Assembly: GCF_000020725.1 (NCBI RefSeq) | Contig: NC_011146.1 | Coordinates: forward strand, 3,533,501-3,597,500 | Direction of reading: 5' to 3' | Source: Citrifermentans bemidjiense Bem | GTDB lineage: Bacteria > Desulfobacterota > Desulfuromonadia > Geobacterales > Geobacteraceae | DNA: 64,000 nt | Shown here: one piece after another, positions 1 through 16,333 of the stretch | How positions within the stretch are numbered: position 1 is the stretch's first letter | How the letters are laid out: each line of letters begins with the position of its first letter | Notes under the pieces: model-generated | Databases searched by the model: none | Seen by the model: only the letters and a program-made list of their open reading frames with translations | Told to the model about the DNA's origin: nothing | Made by a program: the position numbers and the translations under genes

Positions 1-1461
1 GGTGACGCTTTGCGTTGCCGGCGCGGTGGGAGGCTGGTTCAAAACCTCGGCCACAACCCCGAACTTGTGCGACACCACGGAATATCCGTCGCTGACGTCG
101 ACCTGGACCGGGGTATAGACGTCCCTCTGGTCTATGGTCGGGGTCCAGTTCAAGGTGTTGGTAGCCGGGTCCAGGGTCATTCCCACAGGTGACTGGACCA
201 ACGTGTAGGAGAGGGCGTCGAGTTCGCGGTCCGTTGCCGTTATCTGGTAGGCGTAGGGCATGCCGACGGTTGCTTTGGTAACCGCGGTCGAGGTCACAAC
301 CGGAGGGTAGTTGCAAAGGGGAGTGGCGACCTCAGCCTGTGCCGGGTAGGTTTCGTCGCCGTAGGTTTTCGCCTTGGAGCTGAAACCATCCATAAAGTTT
401 GTCAGGACCGTCGCCTGATAGCACTGGCCTGCAGCGCCGGCGGCAAGAACCGGAATGGTCCAATTCACGCTTTTGGTGGTTGGGTCATAGGTCCCCCCAC
501 TCGTGGCGCTTACAAAGGAGAAGGTGCCGAGAATGTCGCTAGCGCCCGGCGTCACGACGGAGCTGACCTTCACGTTGTTGATGTCGACGAGGTTGGAGTT
601 GCCCACACAGACCTGATAGGTGGTGTTGCTGCCGTTGCTGCCACAGGCGCCCCCCACCTGCGAGTAGCTGATGTCCAGCGGCAGCGTGGTGTACGTCTTG
701 TCGGTGACCACGACAGAAGAGGAGCCGTTGACAGGGATGGTGAGGTCATACTGAAAGGCGAACTGCATGTCGCCCGCTTCGGGGAAGGGGCCCGCGGCGT
801 CGGAAAGAGTAAGCGGAGAAATTCCGTTTTGCAGCGTGTCGATTATAGCGAAGGCCGTCATGTCGATATCGTAGTGACTCGGCTTGATGGAGGAGGTTTG
901 AACCAGCGTCATGCCGAGCATGTCGCTCTGCGCCGCTCTGCTCCCCTCGACGATCTGTACGTTATCCAGGCCTGAGAGATCGAAATCGTTGTAGCTATAC
1001 AGATGGAGATCGAGATCCGCAGCGGTGGTGTTCTGTATGCTGACACTCTTCACGAAGGTGGAGTTTAAGGAATCGTCCAGTTTGTCCGGGACGGTGAAGA
1101 CAACCGTGGCCACAAATTCCGGAGCAGTGTAAACCGCCGTGACACTGGTGCGGTCGGCACTGTAGGAGGCAGTCACCGGGAGCGAGTTGAACGGAGTCTG
1201 CGTCTCGGCAGTTCCTAGCCGGTACCAAAACCACTGCTTGTACAGCGGGTCCCACATAGCCGACGAAATGTACCAGTCCGTAGCGCCATTGGGATAAAGG
1301 TTGTAATCGTACCCGGATACATCGATAACTCCCATGTCCAGGTTGCCGATGGTCCAGATACTGGTGCCATCTATGTCGTCGGCTTGTGAATCGCCCCCCC
1401 AGAGCAAGGCTCCCATGAGTACACAAAGCGCAAGCAGCGCTTTGATGGTAATCCCTCTCAT
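1..1461 (-). CDS. Secreted Ig/cadherin-like repeat protein (3' end outside window)
   Basis: The minus-strand frame is open from the ATG to the left edge: 487 residues are visible and there is no stop, so the gene is partial. It starts with a signal peptide (KALLALCVLMGALLW, cleavage probably after SQA). Residues about 30-380 are beta-rich and not recognised. Residues about 388-470 form a cadherin/He_PIG-type repeat (YQITATD ... LNWTPT), and a second repeat seems to begin at QPP at the edge. Two tandem ATGs (1464, 1461) follow an AAGGAGG; the second has the better spacing. It lies 24 bases after the parvulin gene, probably in the same operon, so a surface or matrix role beside the nanowire genes is inferred. 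Specific function unknown. Confidence 0.8.
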   Translation of the reverse strand, partial: MRGITIKALLALCVLMGALLWGGDSQADDIDGTSIWTIGNLDMGVIDVSGYDYNLYPNGATDWYISSAMWDPLYKQWFWYRLGTAETQTPFNSLPVTASYSADRTSVTAVYTAPEFVATVVFTVPDKLDDSLNSTFVKSVSIQNTTAADLDLHLYSYNDFDLSGLDNVQIVEGSRAAQSDMLGMTLVQTSSIKPSHYDIDMTAFAIIDTLQNGISPLTLSDAAGPFPEAGDMQFAFQYDLTIPVNGSSSVVVTDKTYTTLPLDISYSQVGGACGSNGSNTTYQVCVGNSNLVDINNVKVSSVVTPGASDILGTFSFVSATSGGTYDPTTKSVNWTIPVLAAGAAGQCYQATVLTNFMDGFSSKAKTYGDETYPAQAEVATPLCNYPPVVTSTAVTKATVGMPYAYQITATDRELDALSYTLVQSPVGMTLDPATNTLNWTPTIDQRDVYTPVQVDVSDGYSVVSHKFGVVAEVLNQPPTAPATQSVT

Positions 1462-1485
1462 CATCCCTCCTTATTGAATTGCATT

Positions 1486-2463
1486 CTATTTAAGAGAAAC
1501 CTCGATGCGAGCATCTCTCCTTAGTTCCATAGCAATTTCAGTACGCTTTCTCTCCTGGTACTGGTTAAGAAGAAACTTCTCCAACAAACCCTTAACCTCG
1601 GCAAATTCCTGAACCCGACTAGGCTTCTTGTCGAAAACTTTTATGACGTGGAAACCGAACTTGGTCTTCACCACGTCGCTTACCTCGCCTACCTTCAGCT
1701 GGAAGGCGACCTTGTCGAATTCGGGGGGCATGAACTGCGGATTGATGTAACCGAGATCGCCACCCTTGCTGGCGCTGTCACCGCTGGAGTGCTCCTTGGC
1801 CAGCTCTTCGAAGCTTTTCTTGCCCTGCAGCACCTCCTCCCTGACCTTCACAATTTTGGCGTTGGCTTGGGCGATCTCTTCCGGGGTCGCCTTCTTGTTG
1901 ACGGTGATCATGATATGGCTCGCCTTCACCGCTTCGGGCACCGTGAATTTAGCTGAGTTGTCCTTGTAGAACCGCTTGAGGTCCTCCTCGGGAACACGGA
2001 CATCCTGGATGCCGCGCTGAATCAGGTACGACTCCGCGAGCAGGTTGCGCCGCAACTGCTCCCGCATTTCCTTCTCCTTGGACTCGTCCTTCTTGGCGCT
2101 GGTCGAGCCTTGCGGGCTCTTCAGGCTCAATAGCGCTTCCATTTTCTTCTCGAGGTCGGTCTGCTTCAGCTTCTCGCCTGCCTGAACCAGCAGTTCCATA
2201 TCGACTTGCCTGTTGATCTCGTCCTTCTGTACCTGCTTCCGCACATCGTCTGAGACTTTCGCGGCTCCCAATCGCTTGTATTTGGCGAGGGTCCGCTCCA
2301 CGTTGGCCTTGATCTGGTGGTAGTAGATGGGGCGATCATTCACCCGGGCCGCGATCTGGAGACCCTTTTCCTCCGCTATCGGCTCCGCCCATGCCGGCTG
2401 GTTTCCGGCCAAGGACAGCGCGCACGCTGTAAGTAGACAGATGATCGTTTTCATTACCTGCAT
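1486..2463 (-). CDS. Periplasmic parvulin-type peptidyl-prolyl isomerase (PpiC/SurA family)
   Basis: This 325-residue exported protein has a signal peptide (residues 1-26, ending PAWA), a helical charged N-terminal half (about 35-175) like SurA/PrsA chaperone regions, and one PpiC rotamase domain at about 177-280. The domain shows ASHIMI (His183), GGDLGYI (234-240) and FGFHVIKV (269-276). The family catalyses cis-trans proline isomerisation and helps exported proteins fold. The ATG is preceded by GGAGGA. It sits 24 bases behind the subtilisin-like protease and two genes behind the OmcZ-type cytochrome, so its natural clients are likely the secreted products of this cluster; that part is inference. 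Confidence 0.92.
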   Translation of the reverse strand: MQVMKTIICLLTACALSLAGNQPAWAEPIAEEKGLQIAARVNDRPIYYHQIKANVERTLAKYKRLGAAKVSDDVRKQVQKDEINRQVDMELLVQAGEKLKQTDLEKKMEALLSLKSPQGSTSAKKDESKEKEMREQLRRNLLAESYLIQRGIQDVRVPEEDLKRFYKDNSAKFTVPEAVKASHIMITVNKKATPEEIAQANAKIVKVREEVLQGKKSFEELAKEHSSGDSASKGGDLGYINPQFMPPEFDKVAFQLKVGEVSDVVKTKFGFHVIKVFDKKPSRVQEFAEVKGLLEKFLLNQYQERKRTEIAMELRRDARIEVSLK

Positions 2464-2487
2464 CAGATTCTCCTCCCGGTAATCAGG

Positions 2488-3939
2488 TTATAAATTCGCG
2501 GCAATGCCGATTTCGGCGGAACTGCCGACGCTTCCAAAGGGGTAAAAAGTGATCTGGTCGTCGGTCGCGGATTCGTACTCAAAGCTGAAGTAGGTCTCCT
2601 CGTGAGCCCAGTTCCCTTCCTGAAGATGCTTCACGTCCTGGACCCCCTGGGGAGATGCGATCACCAGCCGCCTCAACCCGTGGTTCACCACGTTGATGCG
2701 GTACTTGCCCGCCTTTACCGGCAAGGTCAGGGCGTTTTCCCAGGTGGGGCCGGGGGTCCGGCGCACGGTCCAGTAGGCAGGCGCCTGCACCAGGCCGTAG
2801 CCGAAGGTGGCATCCCTGCCCGGCTCGCCCAGGTCGAGCGCTCCGGCGCCAAGCCAGCTGCGCACCGCTTCCACTTTCCCCGCATCCTGAGCGGAATCGT
2901 CAACCATGCCGGCCGAAAGCAAGAGCGCCACCGCCCCGGCTACGTGCGGGGCAGCCTGGGAGGTCCCGCTTAGCAAACCGTACCTCCCTCCGGGGAGGGT
3001 CGAGGTGATCCCCACCCCGGGGGCGGAGAATTCGATCTTCGCGCCGTAATTGGAGAAGAAGGCGCGGGTGTTGTCCGCCGCGGTGGCTGCCACGGCTATC
3101 ACCGAGGCGAAATCCGCCGGGTAGTCCACGACAGGCTGCCCCGAGTTGCCGGCCGCGGCAACGATGACGATCCCGGCCGCGTACGCCTCGTCGCAGGCGT
3201 CCTTCACGGCCTGGGAGAAATACAGGGGGGAGTTGGGCATGCTGAAGCTGATGTTGATGACATCGACTTTGTTGCTGATGGCCCACTCCAAGCCGGCCAG
3301 GACCCTGGAAGTGCTGCCGAACATGTTCCGGTCCAGGATCTTCACCGCGTAGAGCGAGGCGTCCGGGGCAACGCCCACGACGCCAGTTCCGTTGTCCTTG
3401 GCGCCGATGATCCCGGCGAGATGGGTACCGTGCCCCCGGCGGGAGTCGTCGAACGGATCTGCGGTGTTGGTGACGAAGTTGTAGCCGCCGCGGTAGTTCT
3501 CCTTGAGTTCGGGATGGTTGTAGTCGATCCCCGTATCGAGGATGGCGACCTTGATGCCGGCGCCCCTGATGCCGTTCCAGGCCGACCGATTGGCGGCTAT
3601 GCGAGTCACCCCCCAGGAGAGGAGGTATTCCGGTGTGAGTTCGGGCTCGGGAAAAGCCGGTTCCGCCGAGAACTCCCGGTCCTCCTCCACGTAGGAGACA
3701 TCGGGGTCTTGCTTAAGCGAGCCGATCGCCTCTTCGGGAAGGTCTGCCGTTAAAGCGTTAGCGACCGCGTGGGAACGCTCCACCCGGCCGCCGGCTCGAT
3801 GCACTCTGTCCTGCTTTTCCAGTTCGGTAAGGGGTGCGGTTTTGCGAAAGCCGATGATCACCTTCTTCTCTGCCCCCTGGGCCAGGCCAGGGATCAAAAC
3901 AAGGGCTACGAGCGCATAACACATTAAAGTTCTTACCAT
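2488..3939 (-). CDS. ozpA: Subtilisin-like S8 serine protease, OzpA-type (OmcZ-processing)
   Basis: This 483-residue secreted protease has a signal peptide (1-22, ending AQG), an inhibitor I9-type propeptide (about 25-92), and a peptidase S8 domain (about 105-375). The catalytic residues are Asp135 (VAILDTGID), His170 (RGHGTHLAG) and Ser327 (SGTSQAAPHVAG), with oxyanion Asn265 (AAAGNSG). The usual Met after the catalytic Ser is Gln. A C-terminal beta-domain follows, about 385-483. GAGGTGAAAA precedes the ATG. In Geobacter sulfurreducens the gene next to omcZ encodes OzpA, the protease needed to convert OmcZ to its short, filament-forming form. Position directly downstream of the OmcZ homologue and the domain plan support the same job here. 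A hairpin (3988-4016) separates the two genes and may lower protease expression. Confidence 0.87.
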   Translation of the reverse strand: MVRTLMCYALVALVLIPGLAQGAEKKVIIGFRKTAPLTELEKQDRVHRAGGRVERSHAVANALTADLPEEAIGSLKQDPDVSYVEEDREFSAEPAFPEPELTPEYLLSWGVTRIAANRSAWNGIRGAGIKVAILDTGIDYNHPELKENYRGGYNFVTNTADPFDDSRRGHGTHLAGIIGAKDNGTGVVGVAPDASLYAVKILDRNMFGSTSRVLAGLEWAISNKVDVINISFSMPNSPLYFSQAVKDACDEAYAAGIVIVAAAGNSGQPVVDYPADFASVIAVAATAADNTRAFFSNYGAKIEFSAPGVGITSTLPGGRYGLLSGTSQAAPHVAGAVALLLSAGMVDDSAQDAGKVEAVRSWLGAGALDLGEPGRDATFGYGLVQAPAYWTVRRTPGPTWENALTLPVKAGKYRINVVNHGLRRLVIASPQGVQDVKHLQEGNWAHEETYFSFEYESATDDQITFYPFGSVGSSAEIGIAANL

Positions 3940-3987
3940 TTTTCACCTCATAGATACGTTATTTTGGGTATACCCCTAAAGATGAAA

Positions 3988-4016
3988 ATATGGGAGCGCT
4001 GGGCGCGCTCCCATAT
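3988..4016 (-). terminator. Terminator-like hairpin after the OmcZ-type gene
   Basis: A perfect 12-bp stem (3988-3999 with 4005-4016) and a 5-base loop lie between the octaheme cytochrome and the protease. On the minus strand it runs into TTTTC, so it can act as a partial terminator that favours the cytochrome over the protease. Confidence 0.6.
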
Positions 4017-4045
4017 CTATTGCTGCGATTACCGCTCAAATTGCG

Positions 4046-5524
4046 TTACTTCTTAATGGGCACCACGATCGGCTTGGAGACCTCACCGTACACTGCCTTC
4101 ACGACGGCAAGCTTGCCGGCGGCGAAGTTGGTGCCGGTAACGACGATCTTGGTGTTGCTCCAGGAAACGACGTTGGCTTGGACGCCATCGACGAAGACAC
4201 CCAAAAGCTCCTGGTATTCGGCGGCCGGAGCGGTGCCGAACCCGATACCGGTGATGGTAAGGGTGGTGGAGGTCAGGAGCGCGTTGGTGGCGGTCAGTTT
4301 CGGCGTGAGAGTGAGGGTTTTCAGGTTACTTACGGTCTCGCCGCCTTTGTTGATGCGGACTTCGTACACGCCGGCAACCAGGGTCGCCGGGAGGGCAACC
4401 TTGACTTCGCTCACCGAGGTGGAGAACGGAATCAGGGTGAAGGTTTCGGTGCCGCGGGTCAGGACAACGGTCGGGATGTAGCTGTTCCCGACAGCATCCA
4501 GGTTGGTGAAGCCCATACCGGTGAGGGTAAGGGTGTTGGCGACGCCTGCCGGCAGGGTGATGGCGCTGATCTCGTTAACAAACGGAGCGGTAGCGGTGGT
4601 ATCGCTGGCGGCGGTGCCGGTCCAGGAGTAGTGGCAGCCCACGCAATCCCAGTTGTTACCGACGTGACCAAAGCCCGGATCCTCGTTGCTGGCAACGATG
4701 CCCCCCAGGTTCGCGGCATTCGGGGAGTCGGCCTGGATGTTGTGCAGGGAAGCGATGCCGTGGCAGGCCTCGCAAGCGCGGATGGTGAAGTTGTTTTCGG
4801 TGCCGGTTGAGGCATGGCACCAGGTGCAGTTACCGACCGGGCTGAGGTCCTGACCGATACCGGTGCTGTGGTGGGTGTCTTTGTTGGCGAATATCTGAAG
4901 GGTGGCGTCGGCCTGGTGGCAGGCCTCGCAACCCTGGACGATCACGGTCTTGGTCGGGTCGGTCGGGTCAACTACACTGCGGCCTACCGGAGCCGGGGTC
5001 ATGCCGTTGAAGGATGTGTCCATCGCGTAGTCGGTGCTGGTCGGGATCCAGTGGCCGTCTTTCGGGTTGTCGATGGCGGAGCCGTGGCAGTGTTTGCAGT
5101 TCTGGGCTGCAGCCTGATCGGTCAGGTGGTGCGGACCTTTGGTATGGCAGTTGAAGCAGGGCCTCGGATTCTGGACTGCAGTGACACCGCTGACCGGGTC
5201 AGTGGTGATGTAATGGCAACCGGTAGCCAGGTTGGCCGGAAGGGTGCCCGAGGCGTTGTTGCAGCTGACCACCACGCCGCCGGGCTGGTTGATCAACGCA
5301 TGGTGCTTGTCCTTCAATTTCAGGTCGCTGTCGGTCGCCGTTACCCAACCGGGGGTGTGGCAGTCGCGGCAGAGCTTGTAGTTCGAACCAGAGAAGTTCT
5401 TGTAGACCGTATCCTTGATGTAAATACCCTGAGGAGCCGGAGGGGGGGTGGCGGCGACGGCCAGAGAAGCGCTCACGAGCACGGCGGCGGCCGCTGCCAG
5501 CAGTTTAATCATTTTCTTTTGCAT
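4046..5524 (-). CDS. omcZ: OmcZ-type octaheme c-type cytochrome (nanowire subunit)
   Basis: This 492-residue exported protein has a signal peptide (1-25, ending AVAA), then eight heme sites: seven CXXCH (52-56, 123-127, 143-147, 199-203, 233-237, 251-255, 294-298) and one CX14CH (Cys88 to Cys103-His104). Seven CXXCH plus one CX14CH is the distinctive heme signature of Geobacter OmcZ, which polymerises into conductive extracellular filaments and is needed for thick current-producing biofilms. Residues about 312-492 hold no heme motifs and look like two IPT/TIG-type beta-sandwiches (GMGF, GIGF turns), matching the C-terminal part of full-length OmcZ that is removed on maturation. The OzpA-like protease gene follows at once. 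Family assignment is strong; conductivity is inferred. Confidence 0.9.
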   Translation of the reverse strand: MQKKMIKLLAAAAAVLVSASLAVAATPPPAPQGIYIKDTVYKNFSGSNYKLCRDCHTPGWVTATDSDLKLKDKHHALINQPGGVVVSCNNASGTLPANLATGCHYITTDPVSGVTAVQNPRPCFNCHTKGPHHLTDQAAAQNCKHCHGSAIDNPKDGHWIPTSTDYAMDTSFNGMTPAPVGRSVVDPTDPTKTVIVQGCEACHQADATLQIFANKDTHHSTGIGQDLSPVGNCTWCHASTGTENNFTIRACEACHGIASLHNIQADSPNAANLGGIVASNEDPGFGHVGNNWDCVGCHYSWTGTAASDTTATAPFVNEISAITLPAGVANTLTLTGMGFTNLDAVGNSYIPTVVLTRGTETFTLIPFSTSVSEVKVALPATLVAGVYEVRINKGGETVSNLKTLTLTPKLTATNALLTSTTLTITGIGFGTAPAAEYQELLGVFVDGVQANVVSWSNTKIVVTGTNFAAGKLAVVKAVYGEVSKPIVVPIKK

Positions 5525-5563
5525 GTTTTCTCCTTGTTAGATGTGAAATGAGAATGATAAGCC

Positions 5564-5605
5564 TTAAATACCCTTTGCTCTTTCGTTCAAAGTCGTTTTC
5601 GGCAT
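5564..5605 (-). CDS. Possible 13-codon leader ORF before omcZ
   Basis: ATG preceded by AAAGGAGGTG and ending TAA (MPKTTLNERAKGI). The Shine-Dalgarno spacing is very short, so this may be a ribosome standby site or chance. It is listed because it follows the 34-codon ORF in the same leader. Confidence 0.2.
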   Translation of the reverse strand: MPKTTLNERAKGI

Positions 5606-5622
5606 CACCTCCTTTGGCAGAT

Positions 5623-5727
5623 CTACCCGGAGGATGCGGCAGCTTCCGGCTCGATGCCGCTGGCGAGTCGATGTTCCCCTACCCGCAGCGGCACCGTTGC
5701 GGAATCAGCCGCATCCCCAGGTGACAC
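5623..5727 (-). CDS. Possible 34-codon leader ORF between the two large cytochromes
   Basis: A GTG codon lies 7 bases after AAAGGAGG and opens a 34-codon frame ending TAG at 5623, in the leader between the 27-heme gene and omcZ. No known domain is visible. The same DNA forms a long imperfect hairpin (5632-5716), so the frame may be a by-product of RNA structure. It could also be a regulatory leader peptide; ribosome profiling or conservation of codon-position bias in relatives would decide. Confidence 0.3.
   Translation of the reverse strand: MSPGDAADSATVPLRVGEHRLASGIEPEAAASSG
5632..5716 (-). promoter_or_regulatory. Long nested hairpin in the omcZ leader
   Basis: Reading the minus strand, GGATGCGGC (from 5716) pairs with GCCGCATCC (to 5632). 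Inside it TTCCG pairs with CGGAA and TGCCGCTG pairs with CAGCGGCA. The apical loop is about 23 bases. Three nested stems in an 85-base segment directly upstream of a highly expressed cytochrome gene suggest a structured leader RNA (stability, translation or ligand control). It does not show the conserved core of the GEMM (c-di-GMP/cGAMP) riboswitches known in Geobacter. Confidence 0.45.
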
Positions 5728-5757
5728 ACAAATCCCTCCTTTGATTGCAGGCGCCAC

Positions 5758-5784
5758 CTCTGCCGGAGCCCAGCTCCGGCAGAG
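5758..5784 (-). terminator. Strong hairpin after the 27-heme cytochrome gene
   Basis: A perfect 12-bp stem (CTCTGCCGGAGC with its complement) and 3-base loop lie 50 bases past the stop codon. There is no T-run on the minus strand, so it may protect the 3' end or cause pausing rather than act as a simple intrinsic terminator. Confidence 0.45.
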
Positions 5785-5834
5785 ATTCCAATCCATTTTC
5801 AGCTTGTCGCTTTGCAGCGGTTCTACATTCTTGG

Positions 5835-8800
5835 TTACCTTTCGATACTCCAGCGCCGGGACTTGGTGATGTGGCAGCTCGCGTTGTAGCAGCTCCCGGT
5901 CACGTTTTCAGCCGGGGCGCTCACCCTTTTAGCCCCGGTGTAAATGATGAAACCGGTGGAGAAGCGGTACTTGGGATCGACGACGACATCGACGTTCTCG
6001 ATGTTCCCTTTCAGCGGCATCGTCATCTTATGGTTACGGGAGTCCGTGAAACCGCCGTTGTGGCAGATGGCGCAGTTGCTCCACCCCTCGCTCGGTTTGG
6101 CGTTGGGCGACACGTGAGCGGCCACCAGGTGGGCGCCGCCACCGCCGGAGTAATCCTCGTAGCGCGCCGAGGACCAGCTTCCCTGCACGCCGAAGAGCTG
6201 CGGCGTGATGGTCGCCTTGGGTGCAGGCGGGTAGCCGTGGCAGGCGTCACAGGTCCCGGTGGGCTTGAAGGCGCCTCCGGTTGCGCGGTGGTCGTGGCAG
6301 GAGAGGCAGTTTGTCGTCGGGTGTGCGGTCTCCGGCACGCCGGCGCGGTAGTGGCTGGTCTGGGTGTGGCAGACCTGGCAAAGGCCCTGGTTGGTCGAGG
6401 TATTCACCAGCCCCGTCATCGCATCGTTGAAGACGATGGTCTTGCCGTTGATGACGGTTTTGATCATGTGCAGGTTGGTCGAGCCGTGCGGATCGTGGCA
6501 CTGGGCGCAGGCCATGGCCTGGCTCCCCCCCTTGGCCAGGAAGTGGGTGCTCATGTTGCGGAAGCCTTCGGCAACCACCACCGAGGAGTTGTCGTGGCAG
6601 TATCTGCAGTCGGCGTTGAGGCTGCCGCTCAGTTGCGCCTGAAGGCGGCTACCGCCGTTTATGTGCCGCGCGTTGCGCTCGTGGCAGGCGGTGCACCCCT
6701 TCCCTATCGCCGGGGCGCCGTGGCCGAGCGTTGCCGCCAGGCTCTTGTTGGGTGCCGGGACCCCGTTTATCACCGACAGGGTTCCGGTGTGGCAGCTCTC
6801 GCAGGTTACCGCTCCGATGTTCCAGTTCACCTGCGTCGCGTGGCAGGGGGTGCAGGTGCCGGTGCCGTTGCGCTGGTAGCCGAGCGTGCCGTTGAGATCG
6901 ATGCTCTGGTTGACGTGGTTGGCGCTGCTCACGTTGTGGCAGGCCTGGCAGCCGGTCGAGTTTTGCGTGGTCAGCATCGGCCCGTAGGCGGCAGCCGAGG
7001 TGCTGAAGTGCGCGAAATGGGCGCCGCTTGCGATGAGCGGGCTGCCGAGACCGGTGGCCGTGTCATGGCAGGTGCCGCACGCGCCGGTAGCCTTCATGGT
7101 CCAGTTGGGGGAGGAGTAGACCCCTCTACCGTTTGAGTGGCAGTAGCTCGTGGTGCAGGTGTCGGAGACGTCGATCTCGGTACCTAGTGCGGCGCCGGAG
7201 AAGGACATTTCCTTGATCCCGTTCACGTGCTTTGAGGCGTCCTTGATGCTGCTGTTGGAGGCTGCAGTCGCGGCATGGCAGAGCGTGCAGCTGTAGCCGC
7301 GCGAAAGGTGAGCCGTGTGGGCGTTGGTACCGGGGGCCGCGTCGTGGCATGCCGAGCACTCCCCGGGGGTGCCGACGATGCTGTTCTTGCCGAGTGCCCA
7401 GGTCGCGGTCTTGTAAACCGGGGGGACACTCGAAGGAGCGCCGTTACTGTGGCAGTAGTTGGTGAGGCAGCTCCCCGAGCCGGTCGGATCGTAGCTCGGA
7501 GTGGCGCCGTAGTAGGCCGCCGTGCCGGAACGAGTCCTGAACACCTGCTGGAAATCGCCGCTGGCGTGCTGGTTCCCGGAGTGGCAGGCAGCGCAGGTTA
7601 ATCCCCTGCTGGTGTGGGCCAGGTGCGGGGTGAGCGACTCGTCCTTGAAGACGCCGCTGGTAGCGTAGTTGGAGCTCCCGCTGCTGGCGTAGCCGCTCGG
7701 GCCGGCAGCGTTTATCTGCGGCGGGTTCCCGTGGCAGGAGTTGCACCCGGCCGCGAAGGAGCCGTCGGCGCTGTCGTGGACATGGCAGCTGCGGCAGACG
7801 TTGGGGTCGGTGCTTGTGTGTTCGGGGGGATAGTTCCCTCCCGGAGCCGGGATGGCGTGGCAGGCGACGCAGACGCCGTCGGGGCCGGCCCAGTTGCTCC
7901 CTGCGTCCTTGTACTGGTTGAGGACCTTCGTGTTGGTGGTCAGCGGGTTCATGTAGCGGCGCACCAGCCAGACGTTAGGCGCGGTGCCGTCCAGGGGGTC
8001 TACGTGGGCGGCGTGGCAGTCGGCGCACTGGATGTTCTGTCCCTTGCCGTTATGCGCCCGCTTCCCGGCGTGGCAGTTGGTACAGATGTTCACCTCATTG
8101 GCGCTCCCCCCCCTCACGTCTGTGCGCAAAAGCCGTCCTCGTGATGAAGAAAGAAGTCCGAAGGTCGACGAGGAAGCGTTGTCGAATGTGCGTGCGTTGG
8201 AGTCGGCGTAGTGAGGGGCGTGGCAGGTGGTGCAGACGAGCTTCCCACTCGGGAACAGCATGGCGGAAGTCGAGTTCGCCGGATTGGCGTTGACTGGGTC
8301 TTTGAAGAATTTCGCCGGTGTCAGCTTTACCTTGGAGGTGGCACTCGTGTAGTTGAAGTTGACCGGATGGGTGCCGGTTTGGACATCGCGCTGGTTGCGC
8401 TGGCGGTGGCAGTCGAGACAAAGGGTGTCACCGGGGCGTCTCAGCAGCAGGTCTCCGGTGAAGGAGTGGTGATTGTGGCAGCTTGTGCAACCGATGACTC
8501 CAGCCTTCGTGGGCCGAAGCGCCAGTATCGCAGGATCTGTCGAGATTTGGGCTCCTGCGGCCGGCATATTGACCGGTCCGGCCCAGTTGTGGGAGGTCTG
8601 CAACTGCTCGGACGGAAAGAGCCCCGTGTCGGTTGACCCGAACGGGTTCGCTATGTCGCTGGCCGAGAACCCGCGCGCCATCGTCTGCGGGTTGTGGCAC
8701 TTAAGGCAAAGGTTGTTGACGCCGTAGGCGTCGACGAGCGTCGCTACGTAGACGCCGTCGATGAGCGCTATGGTATGACACCCCAGGGTCCCCGAGCAGG

Positions 8801-8888
8801 ACATATTGGATATGTGCGGCGACTCGATTGCAGAGGCAGTCGAGATCGTCAGCAGTATTAACCAAAACGCTGCTATGAATCTTTTCAT
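5835..8888 (-). CDS. Giant multiheme c-type cytochrome, up to 27 hemes
   Basis: This 1017-residue exported cytochrome (signal peptide to about residue 20, STASA) contains 23 CXXCH motifs. It also has three CX4CH motifs (CLTNYCH, CTTSYCH and a C-terminal CYNASCH) and one CX5CH near the N-terminus (CSGTLGCH). CX4CH followed by CXXCH is the hallmark of the Geobacter CxxxxCH/CXXCH family. No membrane segment follows the signal, so it is periplasmic, outer-surface or extracellular. The ATG at 8888 is chosen over an upstream TTG because AGGAG lies 8 bases before it. The gene sits between an NHL-repeat protein and omcZ, so co-expression with the nanowire subunit is likely. Its exact redox partner cannot be read from sequence. 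Confidence 0.9.
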   Translation of the reverse strand: MKRFIAAFWLILLTISTASAIESPHISNMSCSGTLGCHTIALIDGVYVATLVDAYGVNNLCLKCHNPQTMARGFSASDIANPFGSTDTGLFPSEQLQTSHNWAGPVNMPAAGAQISTDPAILALRPTKAGVIGCTSCHNHHSFTGDLLLRRPGDTLCLDCHRQRNQRDVQTGTHPVNFNYTSATSKVKLTPAKFFKDPVNANPANSTSAMLFPSGKLVCTTCHAPHYADSNARTFDNASSSTFGLLSSSRGRLLRTDVRGGSANEVNICTNCHAGKRAHNGKGQNIQCADCHAAHVDPLDGTAPNVWLVRRYMNPLTTNTKVLNQYKDAGSNWAGPDGVCVACHAIPAPGGNYPPEHTSTDPNVCRSCHVHDSADGSFAAGCNSCHGNPPQINAAGPSGYASSGSSNYATSGVFKDESLTPHLAHTSRGLTCAACHSGNQHASGDFQQVFRTRSGTAAYYGATPSYDPTGSGSCLTNYCHSNGAPSSVPPVYKTATWALGKNSIVGTPGECSACHDAAPGTNAHTAHLSRGYSCTLCHAATAASNSSIKDASKHVNGIKEMSFSGAALGTEIDVSDTCTTSYCHSNGRGVYSSPNWTMKATGACGTCHDTATGLGSPLIASGAHFAHFSTSAAAYGPMLTTQNSTGCQACHNVSSANHVNQSIDLNGTLGYQRNGTGTCTPCHATQVNWNIGAVTCESCHTGTLSVINGVPAPNKSLAATLGHGAPAIGKGCTACHERNARHINGGSRLQAQLSGSLNADCRYCHDNSSVVVAEGFRNMSTHFLAKGGSQAMACAQCHDPHGSTNLHMIKTVINGKTIVFNDAMTGLVNTSTNQGLCQVCHTQTSHYRAGVPETAHPTTNCLSCHDHRATGGAFKPTGTCDACHGYPPAPKATITPQLFGVQGSWSSARYEDYSGGGGAHLVAAHVSPNAKPSEGWSNCAICHNGGFTDSRNHKMTMPLKGNIENVDVVVDPKYRFSTGFIIYTGAKRVSAPAENVTGSCYNASCHITKSRRWSIER

Positions 8889-8948
8889 GATCAAAGCTCC
8901 TAATAAGTTTTGAAGTAAATGTCGTTCTTTGTGAACAATCCCTCTTTG

Positions 8949-10163
8949 CTACGGGGAGTAGAGGATGCCGATGGCTTGTTTTGTGAACAAGTAACCGCGG
9001 GCATCCCGGGCAATCGCCGTCAGAATGTTGCTGCCCAAAACGAGATTCGGAACGGTGACACTCCAGGTGGTAGCTGAGGTGTAGGAGACCGCGGGCCCGG
9101 CGACGCCGTTGATCTGCACCTCCACGGTGGTGTTAAGGGGAAAGGTTCCGGTCATGGTCAAGCTGGGACTCTTGACCTCGGTAAGTACTGGATCGATCAC
9201 GAGCCCCTGCGGCAGACCCGGGTTCACCCCTCCGTCGATGCCGAACAGGTGCAGACGCCCGTTCCCGTTCGCGACGATGAGGCGCTTGTTGAGCGGATCG
9301 AAGGCAAGCGCCATGGGATCCATGAAGGTGCCGCTCACCAGCCCGCTGAACCCGATGAACTTCAGGAAGGTGCCGATTCCAGCCGGGTCGAGCACCTGCA
9401 CCTTGCTCATATGGAGGTCCGTCACGTACATCCGGTTCAACTGGCCGACCGGGTCGTACTCGAAAGCCGCGCCTACGGGATATTGGAATTGGAGCGGGCC
9501 GGTGCCGTAAGTCCCGATGGACTTGACGAAGGCGTTGTTGCTGCCGGCGTCGAAAAACTGCAGACGGTGGTTGCCTGCATCGGCCACCACCACCTGGTCG
9601 GCAACCTTCTCGTAGGAGACCCCGACCGGGAAGTCGAACTGCCCGGAGGCGGTACCCAGCCCCCCGATGGTCTTCACCAGAGTTCCGGCCGAGGTGAAAA
9701 GGGTTACGTTGTGGGCTTCGTTGTCGGCGACCCAGATATAGCCCCGGGCATCGACCGCAACGCCTATGGCGTATTTGAACTGCCCAAGCCCCGAGCCGAG
9801 GAGCAGCTTCTGGGCACCCTGCTGATCGAGCAGTGCTACCGAGGTCCCCATGCTCACCAACAAGTTGCCGCTGTTATCCAGGGCCACCGCACGCGCGGGT
9901 GATGCGGTCCGGAACAACTGGAGCAACTTCCCCGAAAGATTGAACTTGGAGACGCCACCCTTGCGAGTGTCAGCCACGTAGTAGAAGCCACGCGGATCCA
10001 TCGCAATGGAGACCGGGGAAGCCAAGTTTTCGTACATGGGCGGTGTCAGCACAGTCGTCACCGGTACCGTCCCGGCCATCGCGGTTGTCGTGGGCGAAAA
10101 CGAAGCGAGCATGGCCAGCAGCATTGCGGCACACCCAACTTTTTTCTGCAAAGAAATCAGCAT
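8949..10163 (-). CDS. Secreted NHL-repeat beta-propeller with C-terminal Ig-like domain
   Basis: This 404-residue exported protein has a signal peptide (residues 1-31, ending TAMAG), then six or so NHL-type propeller repeats (for example GQFKYAIGVAVDARGYIWVA, GQFDFPVGVSYE, DAGNHRLQFF). A C-terminal beta-sandwich follows at about 310-404 (NTTVEVQING ... SNILTAIARD). The ATG at 10163 has AAGGAGGAG upstream and is preferred to an upstream in-frame codon. NHL propellers are scaffolds for protein or polysaccharide binding. It is the first gene of the run that continues into the 27-heme cytochrome and omcZ (60-base gap), so a role in outer-surface assembly or anchoring of the cytochromes is inferred. 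Confidence 0.8.
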   Translation of the reverse strand: MLISLQKKVGCAAMLLAMLASFSPTTTAMAGTVPVTTVLTPPMYENLASPVSIAMDPRGFYYVADTRKGGVSKFNLSGKLLQLFRTASPARAVALDNSGNLLVSMGTSVALLDQQGAQKLLLGSGLGQFKYAIGVAVDARGYIWVADNEAHNVTLFTSAGTLVKTIGGLGTASGQFDFPVGVSYEKVADQVVVADAGNHRLQFFDAGSNNAFVKSIGTYGTGPLQFQYPVGAAFEYDPVGQLNRMYVTDLHMSKVQVLDPAGIGTFLKFIGFSGLVSGTFMDPMALAFDPLNKRLIVANGNGRLHLFGIDGGVNPGLPQGLVIDPVLTEVKSPSLTMTGTFPLNTTVEVQINGVAGPAVSYTSATTWSVTVPNLVLGSNILTAIARDARGYLFTKQAIGILYSP

Positions 10164-10926
10164 GATAACTCCTCCTTGGTACAAGGTAAAAACTGCACGT
10201 CAGCCATGGACGGATCAGGCGGTTGACCGAGAGATCGGCGCAGGCTCGCCTCCGGGAAATCGAGACGCAGCGGAGCCGCCGACCAAAGTTCAGCGGTAGC
10301 TAATGCTCATGCTGTTCCAGAATTAGTTTTTTTATATGAAATTATTTTAATACTTTTTAATTGAAACCATACCCCTTTGGTTCTAATGTTCCATCTATTG
10401 GAGTTTTCGAATATTGGTGAAAAGGAGAGTTACCTGGGAGGTAAAACTTTCTTACAGCTTCAGCGAGAGCAGCAGAGGCTTTCAAATTAAAACGTTACCA
10501 AGCTGAAACCGTCTTAAAACTAAATAAAAACCAATTAAACGGCTTTAACACAGGTAGGCGGTGAAATAACGTCAGCGCGCAACGGCAGGATCCGTTCGCA
10601 AGCAGGCAGGAACCGGAGAAGCAAATGCCAGGAGATGTCTTGTGCAAAGGGTAAGAATGAAAACAGATGCGGAAGGGAGGAAGCTCGGCTAAGGAGTGTG
10701 GCATTGGGGAATACGACGCTGACGCAAAGGAAAGTTATCTCGTGGTACAGGCCGTGCGCTTACAGATAAGGCGAGGCGACAACTATTTTGACACGGGGGG
10801 TAGCCTCTGGTTTTACCTCGGGGATGTTTTAAAGGGTAGAAACGAGAAAACCCAGACCTACTGAAGCAAAGGCTTCGGCAGATCGGGGTAAACAATAAAG
10901 AATCGAGTGGAATTCTCTGGCAGTTT
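10164..10926. other. Gene-free stretch upstream of the cytochrome cluster
   Basis: No convincing protein gene is present. It should contain the promoter and leader of the minus-strand cluster; an AT-rich patch lies at about 10322-10370. I found no clean -24/-12 (sigma-54) site and no clear GEMM riboswitch. Short open frames here (for example 10667-10864) have no recognisable domains. Segment 10550-10650 on the plus strand has a few riboswitch-like words but no plausible downstream gene. Confidence 0.5.
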
Positions 10927-11674: not shown

Positions 11675-12856
11675 TTACTTGTTCGTTATAAGCAGTGCCG
11701 AACTTCCCATCTCTTTTTCGTCAACAGCCAGCGATGCTTTGAAACGGTCGGTCGTATATCTCAATTTGGCTTTGACGGTGTACAAACCGGAGGCCAAAGC
11801 CGGTTCCCAGTTCAGCAACCGTTCTTCACCGGCCCGGACCGGTGGCTCATGCGTCCCCTGAGCGTCTGCCCGCGTCTGGGCATACCCCTCGTACCCTGAG
11901 AGCTTTTTATCCTCTTCCAAAAACGCGTTGTCGTCGGGACGGGCACTGAAGTTGGGGGCAAATAGCCATTCCTTCCGGGCGCGACTCACTCCCTGTCGGT
12001 CGAGTATGTCTACGGTAAGATATACGCCGCGGGCATTGGGGCCGGTCGGGACAGAATGTCCGGCGCCGATATTGGTCACACTGAACGAGAGGATTGCCTT
12101 CTCCTTATCGCGCTGAATGATTGAGAGGCTCAGTGCCCCCCCCAGACGCTGGCTGGAGTGACCACCAGTCCAAAGATGCCGCCCAACGGCGACAGGAGCA
12201 GCATCCGAGTCCTCGGCAGTTTTGCGCACGGTACGGGGCATGTGGCAGTCCTGGCACTGCTGTGTCCCCAAGCCCGGCTTTTTGAAGTCATCACGCCATT
12301 CGAGAAAAGTCTGGTACTGCCCCCCCACGATTCTTTTTTCCGTGATGTCAACATGACAGTGAGCGCAGACGGCAGCAGTCTGCAGAGCCGGCTCGACCAC
12401 AGATTCATGGGGTGCGTTTTTCGTCTTGTGGACGCTCCTGACTTTCCCTTCGGGGGTCAGGTGGCAGGTAGCACAGGTGATTGAGATCTCTCCGGCATTA
12501 ACCACGTTAGGCAGTTGCTTTCCCAGGGTGTCCTTGCCGGGGATGTTGAATGCCCCAGCAAAATGACAGGAGCGGCACCATTCGATATCTCCGCCAGAGG
12601 CAAGCGGGGTAAATTTCGAGGTGGCATGTGCTGTCGCTGCCGACGAAACTGCCGCAGGTATCGAACGGTTGGCGGAATGGTTATCACTGCCAACGCCTAA
12701 CGCATATTCGAGATACAGAGTCTGGTGACACTCTCCACAGGTCTCCGACGGGGTTGCAGCACCCTTGGGAAACGTGACCGTTCCTGCAAGTGCGATGGAT
12801 GTAATCGACATAAGCATAGTAAAAACTGCGCCCATAAGTCTCTGACTTCTTTTCAT
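11675..12856 (-). CDS. Exported pentaheme c-type cytochrome (cytochrome c554-like)
   Basis: This 393-residue protein has a signal peptide (1-24, ending IALAG) and five CXXCH motifs (40-44, 94-98, 128-132, 164-168, 201-205) in the first 205 residues. A beta-rich C-terminal domain (about 225-393) contains AGHSVPTGP and many extra His residues that can serve as axial ligands. The layout fits the cytochrome c554/multiheme tetrathionate- or nitrite-type fold group, but no substrate can be assigned. The Shine-Dalgarno is weak (AAAGGG, 6 bases before ATG). It is transcribed divergently from the MocR-type regulator at 13085, a common pairing of regulator and target. It lies within the older tRNA-Gly element, so horizontal acquisition of a respiratory component is plausible. 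Confidence 0.85.
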   Translation of the reverse strand: MKRSQRLMGAVFTMLMSITSIALAGTVTFPKGAATPSETCGECHQTLYLEYALGVGSDNHSANRSIPAAVSSAATAHATSKFTPLASGGDIEWCRSCHFAGAFNIPGKDTLGKQLPNVVNAGEISITCATCHLTPEGKVRSVHKTKNAPHESVVEPALQTAAVCAHCHVDITEKRIVGGQYQTFLEWRDDFKKPGLGTQQCQDCHMPRTVRKTAEDSDAAPVAVGRHLWTGGHSSQRLGGALSLSIIQRDKEKAILSFSVTNIGAGHSVPTGPNARGVYLTVDILDRQGVSRARKEWLFAPNFSARPDDNAFLEEDKKLSGYEGYAQTRADAQGTHEPPVRAGEERLLNWEPALASGLYTVKAKLRYTTDRFKASLAVDEKEMGSSALLITNK

Positions 12857-15595: not shown

Positions 15596-16333
15596 ATGTG
15601 TGAGCAAAAAACGGTATTCATTGCAGGCGCAAGTGGAGCAATCGGGAGACAACTGTCTAAAATTTTGGTTAATGACGGATGGCGGGTTGTAGGAACTACC
15701 AGAACCGCCGGTAAAACGGCCATGATGAAAGAACTAGGTGTTGAACCCGTCATTGTGGACGTGTTCGATGAAAATAAGCTGGCACAGGCGGTGCGTGAGG
15801 CCCAACCTGAGGTCGTTATCCATCAACTCACCGACCTGCCGTATGGACTCGATCCCGAGCTAATGGAAGCAGCTTTGGTCCGCAATGCAATCCTGAGAGA
15901 GGTCGGCACCCGAAACCTGGTTGCAGCCGCCTGCGCTGCTGGAGCAAAACGCCTGATCGCCCAAAGCATTGCCTTTGTATTCGAGCCTGGCCCGACCCCG
16001 TTCACAGAAGAGTCTCCTCTGCTGAACTTTGAGGATCCTGGCTACGGCCCGACGTCCAGGGCGGTGGCAAACCTCGAACAGCAAGTCATGGACGCGCCGC
16101 TCGACGGGTTGGTATTGCGTTACGGGCTTATCTACGGGCCAGGAACCGGATTCGACAGCCCGCTGACCGAGATCGCGGCAACAGTGCATGTCGACGCTGC
16201 AGCCCACGCGGCACGCCTTGCTATAACCAATGGAACCCGCGGCATCTACAACGTCACCGACCCGGACGAGAGGGTCTCAAGTAGGAAAGCGGAAGAAACC
16301 TTTGGGTGGACTGCTGACTTTCGGGCCTCGTAG
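15596..16333 (+). CDS. NAD(P)-binding extended short-chain dehydrogenase/epimerase-like protein
   Basis: This 245-residue protein has a Rossmann fold with the glycine motif GASGAIG (residues 10-16) and an extended-SDR layout (QPEVVIHQ after strand 4, VLRYGLIYGPGTG near 180-192). It is shorter than usual for the class (about 300-340). The expected YXXXK is not clean: the region reads YGPTSRAVANLE, so catalysis by the standard Tyr-Lys pair is uncertain and a binding or sensory role (NmrA-like) is possible. AAGGAG lies before the ATG. It is divergent from the Rrf2 regulator, which probably controls it. Confidence 0.75.
   Translation: MCEQKTVFIAGASGAIGRQLSKILVNDGWRVVGTTRTAGKTAMMKELGVEPVIVDVFDENKLAQAVREAQPEVVIHQLTDLPYGLDPELMEAALVRNAILREVGTRNLVAAACAAGAKRLIAQSIAFVFEPGPTPFTEESPLLNFEDPGYGPTSRAVANLEQQVMDAPLDGLVLRYGLIYGPGTGFDSPLTEIAATVHVDAAAHAARLAITNGTRGIYNVTDPDERVSSRKAEETFGWTADFRAS

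Follow-up and report, generated by a model that had tools for sequence, protein, structure and literature searches.

A probable OmcZ nanowire operon of four protein genes and two candidate RNA elements in Citrifermentans bemidjiense

Introduction

OmcZ wires have been described as the most conductive cytochrome nanowires. Little is known about how they are assembled and regulated (PMC12307469), and a gene run in Citrifermentans bemidjiense Bem raises the question of which genes and signals belong to the OmcZ system. The run opens a stretch of 64,000 nucleotides from contig NC_011146.1 (positions 3,533,501 to 3,597,500), which we call the window; coordinates below are window positions, and the whole run lies on the minus strand. 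In the order of transcription it encodes an NHL propeller, a giant cytochrome, the nanowire cytochrome OmcZ, a subtilisin, a parvulin and a protein with immunoglobulin (Ig) repeats. An earlier note, made from the letters alone, had taken these genes for a complete nanowire locus with a fixed association between omcZ and all its neighbours. Our analysis points to a narrower unit. The OmcZ nanowire operon probably consists of four protein genes and two RNA elements, with the giant cytochrome and propeller independent of it and the locus itself unstable.

The omcZ locus and its core cluster

The gene at 4046..5524 encodes a 492-residue octahaem nanowire cytochrome precursor with Pfam c7, c3 and TIG matches. 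Its seven CXXCH motifs and one CX14CH motif make up the eight haem motifs of the OmcZ signature that the earlier note had recognized. The CX14CH motif of OmcZ has been described before (PMC11208441), and Gbem_3056 is the single omcZ homologue given in the genome paper of the species (PMC2996986). The protein comprises a signal-like N terminus, a haem domain and a C-terminal TIG/Ig-like region (Pfam TIG, E = 1.1e-4) that is conserved in an alignment with 11 other loci, to whose OmcZ proteins it is 42–54% identical. The next gene on the same strand, 106 nucleotides on, encodes an OzpA-like S8 subtilisin (2488..3939; full Pfam S8 profile, E = 3e-58), a candidate OmcZ-maturing protease. It is followed after 24 nucleotides by a secreted parvulin-type prolyl isomerase (1486..2463; Rotamase domain, E = 8e-31) and, after a further 21 nucleotides, by the Ig protein with its He_PIG repeats (1..1464), again as the earlier note had read them. 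The word complete does not apply to the window, which holds only the N-terminal 488 residues of the Ig protein: the gene is cut by the window edge and runs another 8.3 kilobases (kb) to the left, for a full protein of 3,245 residues (L022:5227-14964). After it comes giant31, a 1,143-residue giant cytochrome with 31 CH motifs, 23 of them CXXCH (L022:1690-5121).

To place this cluster among its relatives, we searched 141 genomes of the order. OmcZ matches occurred in 16, or 15 after removal of G100, which has only a 10-haem relative and was scored omcZ-negative. Fifteen loci were testable; G082 contributes two of these, and G022, where omcZ stands at a contig end, was left out of the loci but kept as an omcZ-positive genome. 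The subtilisin adjoins omcZ at all 15 loci and the parvulin lies beside ozpA or the Ig gene at 14, with the gene order swapped at L035. Divergence among OmcZ, subtilisin, parvulin and the Ig N-terminal domain is correlated (Mantel r 0.80–0.92 over 12 loci, phylogeny ignored), which fits one inherited unit, although vertical descent alone could also give such a correlation.

Much of this is familiar. In Geobacter sulfurreducens, omcZ and ozpA (GSU2076-GSU2075) likewise encode a CX14CH octahaem cytochrome and a subtilisin and are described as one operon. Linkage of omcZ with a protease and a prolyl isomerase has been published (PMC11208441; PMC9473688), including for clusters of Borgs, Methanoperedens and ANME-2 (PMC11208441), and the parvulin link is therefore not new. 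The excerpted descriptions of G. sulfurreducens (PMC2680965), compared by description only, mention no Ig or super-sandwich protein, and no stem-loop or leader element. We conclude that this is a real OmcZ locus, mostly of known kind, and that what is new in it is a constant Ig-protein partner together with two conserved RNA features of putative function. OmcZ would be exported as a precursor, and the parvulin would help to fold it or its secreted partners. OzpA would then cut off the C-terminal Ig-like part and the octahaem part would polymerize, as reported for G. sulfurreducens.

An Ig-repeat protein tracks omcZ

By its distribution in sequenced genomes, the Ig protein is the tightest partner of omcZ. 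It is built of a super-beta-sandwich N-terminal domain (N-domain), a further beta domain and He_PIG Ig repeats, of which the full-length protein has 32 stretches, and its gene adjoins the cluster at 14 of the 15 testable loci. Strong matches to an N-domain profile were found in 14 of the 141 genomes, all omcZ-positive; put differently, 14 of 15 omcZ-positive genomes have the domain compared with 0 of 126 omcZ-negative ones (weak partial matches in G015 and G065, E 4e-6 to 7e-7, were left uncounted). The fifteenth is G022, whose assembly is cut at omcZ. When 277 genomes of the class were searched, the N-domain was found in the same 14 genomes only. Judged from these profile matches, the Ig protein belongs to an order-level version of the OmcZ system, and a protein that tracks omcZ across the order is a direct candidate for wire attachment.

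A structural model of the N-domain (residues ~34–260; mean pLDDT 80.4) matched glucodextranase, GH94 phosphorylases and galactose mutarotases in Foldseek. Alignment with VIA-align gave Z 19.6 and a root mean square deviation (rmsd) of 2.6 over 201 residues for glucodextranase 1ug9, Z 18.4 and rmsd 2.5 over 208 residues for GH94, and Z ~16 for mutarotases. The predicted fold is thus a super-beta-sandwich of the GH94/GH15/mutarotase type. With this sugar-enzyme-type sandwich and its long, variable Ig stalk, the protein might hold OmcZ wires within the polysaccharide matrix or on its surface.

Two conserved RNA features flank omcZ

The gap between omcZ and ozpA contains a strong stem-loop (3986..4018, minus strand; stem ATATGGGAGCGC/GCGCTCCCATAT). 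A near-perfect stem with a score of 10–18 is present in this gap at all 15 loci, 13–38 nucleotides past the omcZ stop codon (148 at L027). None of 600 shuffles gave a stem score above 9, and 5 of 42 control same-strand gaps reached 11 or more. Pairing is kept while the sequence varies: among positions with at least five sequences, 14 of 16 showed at least two pair types. The count is anchored on the base pairs, since a MAFFT alignment of the stems misplaced their runs of G. There was little sign that the stem-loop is a dispersed repeat. Searching both strands of six genomes with a degenerate pattern returned three sites, two at omcZ and one elsewhere in G031, although this is a weak test, as the pattern failed to recover the stem of the window itself.

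On the other side of omcZ, the 310-nucleotide gap to the giant cytochrome gene (5525..5834) is structured, with two long predicted helices (structure z -5.3). A dispersed repeat was set aside here too, since the structure is single copy in the genome. The gap matched no Rfam family or riboswitch at gathering score, and sigma-70-type promoters showed no excess over shuffles. It contains a Shine-Dalgarno-like element, AAAGGAGGTGAT (5604..5615), 91–80 nucleotides 5' of the omcZ start and with no conserved frame behind it. A comparable element occurs 73–136 nucleotides before the omcZ start at all 15 loci and can pair with the 16S tail, for which we used what we take to be its sequence. The pairing energy averaged -17.1 kcal/mol at the 15 loci (12 at -15 or below) compared with -8.3 kcal/mol in 101 control leaders, four of which reached -15 or below; one of these four is the omcZ leader of L030 read from another start. 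The element of the window is the strongest of 108 leaders scored in its own genome. The next strongest in that sample lies 109 nucleotides upstream of the gene at 15596-16333 (-16.2 kcal/mol), which presumably encodes a sugar-nucleotide epimerase-like protein. In two omcS-like genes the leader energy varied with the choice of start, from -4.6 to -13.7, and there was no clear element.

Both features extend beyond the order. Among omcZ-like genes of other families of the class, leader energies of -15 or below were found in 10 of 16, as against 2 of 124 controls, and stems scoring at least 10 in 12 of 15, as against 13 of 123 controls; some of these stems end in T runs. The two occur together in two Thiodiazotropha loci and in L071. 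The omcZ-like genes counted leave out the 4-haem protein L203:429-2999 and the omcZ of L201, which was not called as a frame; the putative leader of the latter holds GAAAGGGGGTGAG.

The pair of features resembles an arrangement in Bacillus. The STAB-SD of cry3A resembles a Shine-Dalgarno sequence, lies near -129 and does not serve for initiation; both it and a 3' structure protect messages (PMC4113751). The omcZ leader element, which also stands at a distance from the start codon, can pair with the 3' end of 16S, and the stem-loop recalls the cry retroregulator hairpin. Protection has been shown for cry and is inferred for omcZ. A gene for RNase J is present in the genome, and the literature excerpts on omcZ untranslated regions contained no description of the leader element. 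We suggest that the two elements bracket the omcZ cistron and would keep its messenger RNA (mRNA) above that of the helpers, which may be needed only in small amounts. Our tentative proposal is that the idle ribosome site in the leader and the stem-loop jointly protect the cistron, giving much subunit and little protease, isomerase and anchor from a single transcript, and that Geobacterales add a dedicated Ig-repeat protein that binds glycan and so anchors the OmcZ wires to the polysaccharide of the biofilm. In current-producing biofilms of G. sulfurreducens, omcZ rose 5.70 fold and ozpA 2.08 fold (PMC2680965), a difference that fits uneven dosage but does not prove it. If the RNA elements act as proposed, they would explain how structural and catalytic proteins from one operon come to differ so widely in amount, and they could aid heterologous production of wires.

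It is also possible, though we would not favour it, that both elements are ordinary: the stem an attenuator or leaky intrinsic terminator, and the leader element the ribosome site of a lost peptide or a site for CsrA, which recognizes GGA. A T-rich stretch does follow the stem in the window, L192, L194 and L204, but most stems of the order are not trailed by a T run. A 20-residue frame stands directly behind the leader element at three loci, but the other 12 have no conserved frame there, and two of these keep the element although the frame has decayed. CsrA influences both the biofilm and the current of G. sulfurreducens (PMC13407953), but the GGTGA extension of the element, present at 10 of 15 loci, would pair with the 16S tail and lies outside the GGA motif.

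A number of observations speak against the operon of four proteins and two RNA elements. At five of the 15 loci a short frame follows the leader element (three intact at 20 residues, two decayed), and in these the element may be a genuine site of initiation; the remaining 10 have no conserved frame behind it. Outside the order, 3 of 16 omcZ-like genes lack the leader element and 3 of 15 lack a strong stem, and at several loci missing one or the other, omcZ has no adjoining ozpA. The archaeal L070 and the Campylobacterales L072 have no leader element, and L070, unlike the window, also has no Ig N-domain match. The N-domain is absent from all 14 genomes of the class outside the order with omcZ-like matches, and OmcZ wires in general therefore do not require it. 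Within the order, a further or sole Ig-domain gene lies away from omcZ in G021, G074, G087, G101 and G120, and at L033 (G074) neither the parvulin nor the Ig gene adjoins omcZ. Finally, super-beta-sandwich domains of glycosidases can be purely structural, which makes sugar binding by the Ig protein, suggested by the fold of the modelled N-domain, a guess.

The short frame occurs in the omcZ leaders of L028, L030 and L031, and ~310 nucleotides upstream at L034, as a 20-residue frame, MKK(R/Q)xYxKPR(V/I)(V/I)GSA(N/D)VHPC, with a strong ribosome site; in L032 and L033 it has decayed. It may be a precursor peptide. A search of NCBIfam gave no match for the peptide (MKK..KPRV.GSANVHPC).

The giant cytochrome and the propeller

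Upstream of omcZ the earlier note had placed a 27-haem cytochrome and an NHL propeller, and both are there. The giant cytochrome (5835..8894; 1,019 residues) has 23 CXXCH, 3 CX4CH and 1 CX5CH motifs, 27 CH motifs in all, and its partner gene encodes a secreted propeller (8949..10184). The run had been drawn as 1-10163, which stops 21 bases short of the end of the propeller gene. The fixed association with omcZ held only in part: in the synteny comparison across the order the parvulin and Ig protein passed, with 14 of 15 loci each, whereas the other two genes failed. A giant of the omcZ type was found at 7 of the 15 omcZ loci (window, L027, L028, L030, L031, L034 and L036) and a propeller at 3 (window, L034 and L036); these counts are lower bounds, as several contigs end 1.6–6 kb from omcZ on one side. 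At L036/L077 the Ig gene is followed downstream by the giant and propeller, which thus stand on the opposite side of the cluster. Profile searches of the 141 genomes matched the propeller in 57 and the N-terminal half of the giant in 66, and 82 of 92 propeller matches had a giant-cytochrome match within 6 kb. The pair is present in 53 genomes, 42 of them without omcZ. We therefore rejected a fixed association. Going by these matches, the giant and the propeller are a separate module of two genes, which has ended up next to some omcZ cassettes.

It is unlikely, in our judgement, that all genes of the run nonetheless form one dedicated system for nanowire assembly and anchoring. Such a system would account for the giants and propellers seen near omcZ, and for the enrichment of the close giant subtype in genomes with omcZ (9 of 11 genomes with an N-half E < 1e-250). 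Giant cytochromes near omcZ are also in print for Borg, Methanoperedens and ANME-2 clusters (PMC10874420, PMC9012536), among them an ANME omcZ cluster with 37- and 15-haem cytochromes (PMC10874420). On the other hand, the pair occurs in 42 genomes without omcZ and changes sides at L077, no giant of the omcZ type was seen at 8 of the 15 loci, and the C-terminal half of the window giant is of a resident type (see below). The archaeal giants of L070 (24/26 and 25/26 motifs) resemble the 27-haem giant weakly at best.

Similar groupings have been described. A giant cytochrome, a propeller and a prolyl isomerase stand together, as here, in the OmcS maturation and secretion block (GSU2500-GSU2493; PMC12977616), and an operon of SEEP-SRB groups 26- and 16-haem cytochromes with a prolyl isomerase and a propeller (PMC12246660). 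The omcS region of the window's own genome holds a run of prolyl isomerase, 26-haem cytochrome, 16-haem cytochrome and NHL protein (L083:13730-19805). That run differs from the present one: it has no OmcZ or subtilisin, and its giant and NHL protein are distant from those of the window (E 2e-8 at 22% identity, and E 6e-7, respectively).

Two further giants, L073:14811-17699 and L075:8839-11805 (at 1.33 and 3.98 megabases), have 27 CH motifs each and score almost alike in comparison with the window giant, pointing to a recent duplication.

Loss of the cassette in a sister genome

The window giant and the giants of five neighbours share 23 CXXCH and 27 CH motifs, which gives them the look of full-length orthologues. 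A comparison in 60-residue chunks showed instead that the window giant is a mosaic, of omcZ-locus type to about residue 560 and of resident-paralogue type from about 600 to 1019; it also lacks the FN3-like tail that the giants of the five neighbours carry. The equal motif number is therefore partly chance. The C-terminal part of giant31 is ~58% identical to the same part of the window giant.

A genome of the same genus without omcZ, G031, indicates what such paralogues can do. Its left flank matches the one at the window locus with 97% identity and continues directly into a giant cytochrome gene. The first stretch of this gene is giant31-like (40/40 versus 32/40 bases, for example at L159:6400-6439), and the remainder resembles the window giant (37/40 versus 32/40 at 6480-6519, and mostly higher after that). 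About 18.1 kb, including omcZ and the subtilisin, parvulin and Ig genes, are missing. Stop codons interrupt the reading frame of the giant that is left, and a frameshift and shortening mark the propeller gene. Although this draft assembly consists of 80 contigs, the junction is internal to one of 379 kb. On the simplest reading, the cassette was deleted by recombination between paralogous giant cytochrome genes. Homology between giant cytochromes would thus destabilize the locus and could delete the cassette, which offers a specific explanation for the scattered occurrence of omcZ (present in 15 of the 141 genomes searched). That the omcZ locus is a decaying remnant in C. bemidjiense as well, as the broken remainder in the sister genome, the absence of omcZ from the other same-genus genomes examined (18 listed) and the reported lack of growth of the strain on graphite electrodes (PMC2996986) might suggest, is improbable, given that the window locus keeps all frames open, all haem motifs and both RNA elements.

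Other features of the locus

In the window, a 393-residue cytochrome with five CXXCH motifs (11675-12856) lies 1.5 kb upstream of the propeller and is not among the neighbours of omcZ elsewhere. Proteins of 320–380 residues with ten CXXCH motifs, related to the OmcZ haem domain, were found in L039, L040, L041, G069 and G074; the genomes that carry them mostly carry omcZ too. Upstream of omcZ or of the giant, L028, L030, L031, L032 and L033 encode a membrane protein of ~900 residues of the MMPL-family type, assigned by Pfam for L028 and by a similar N terminus for L030-L033.

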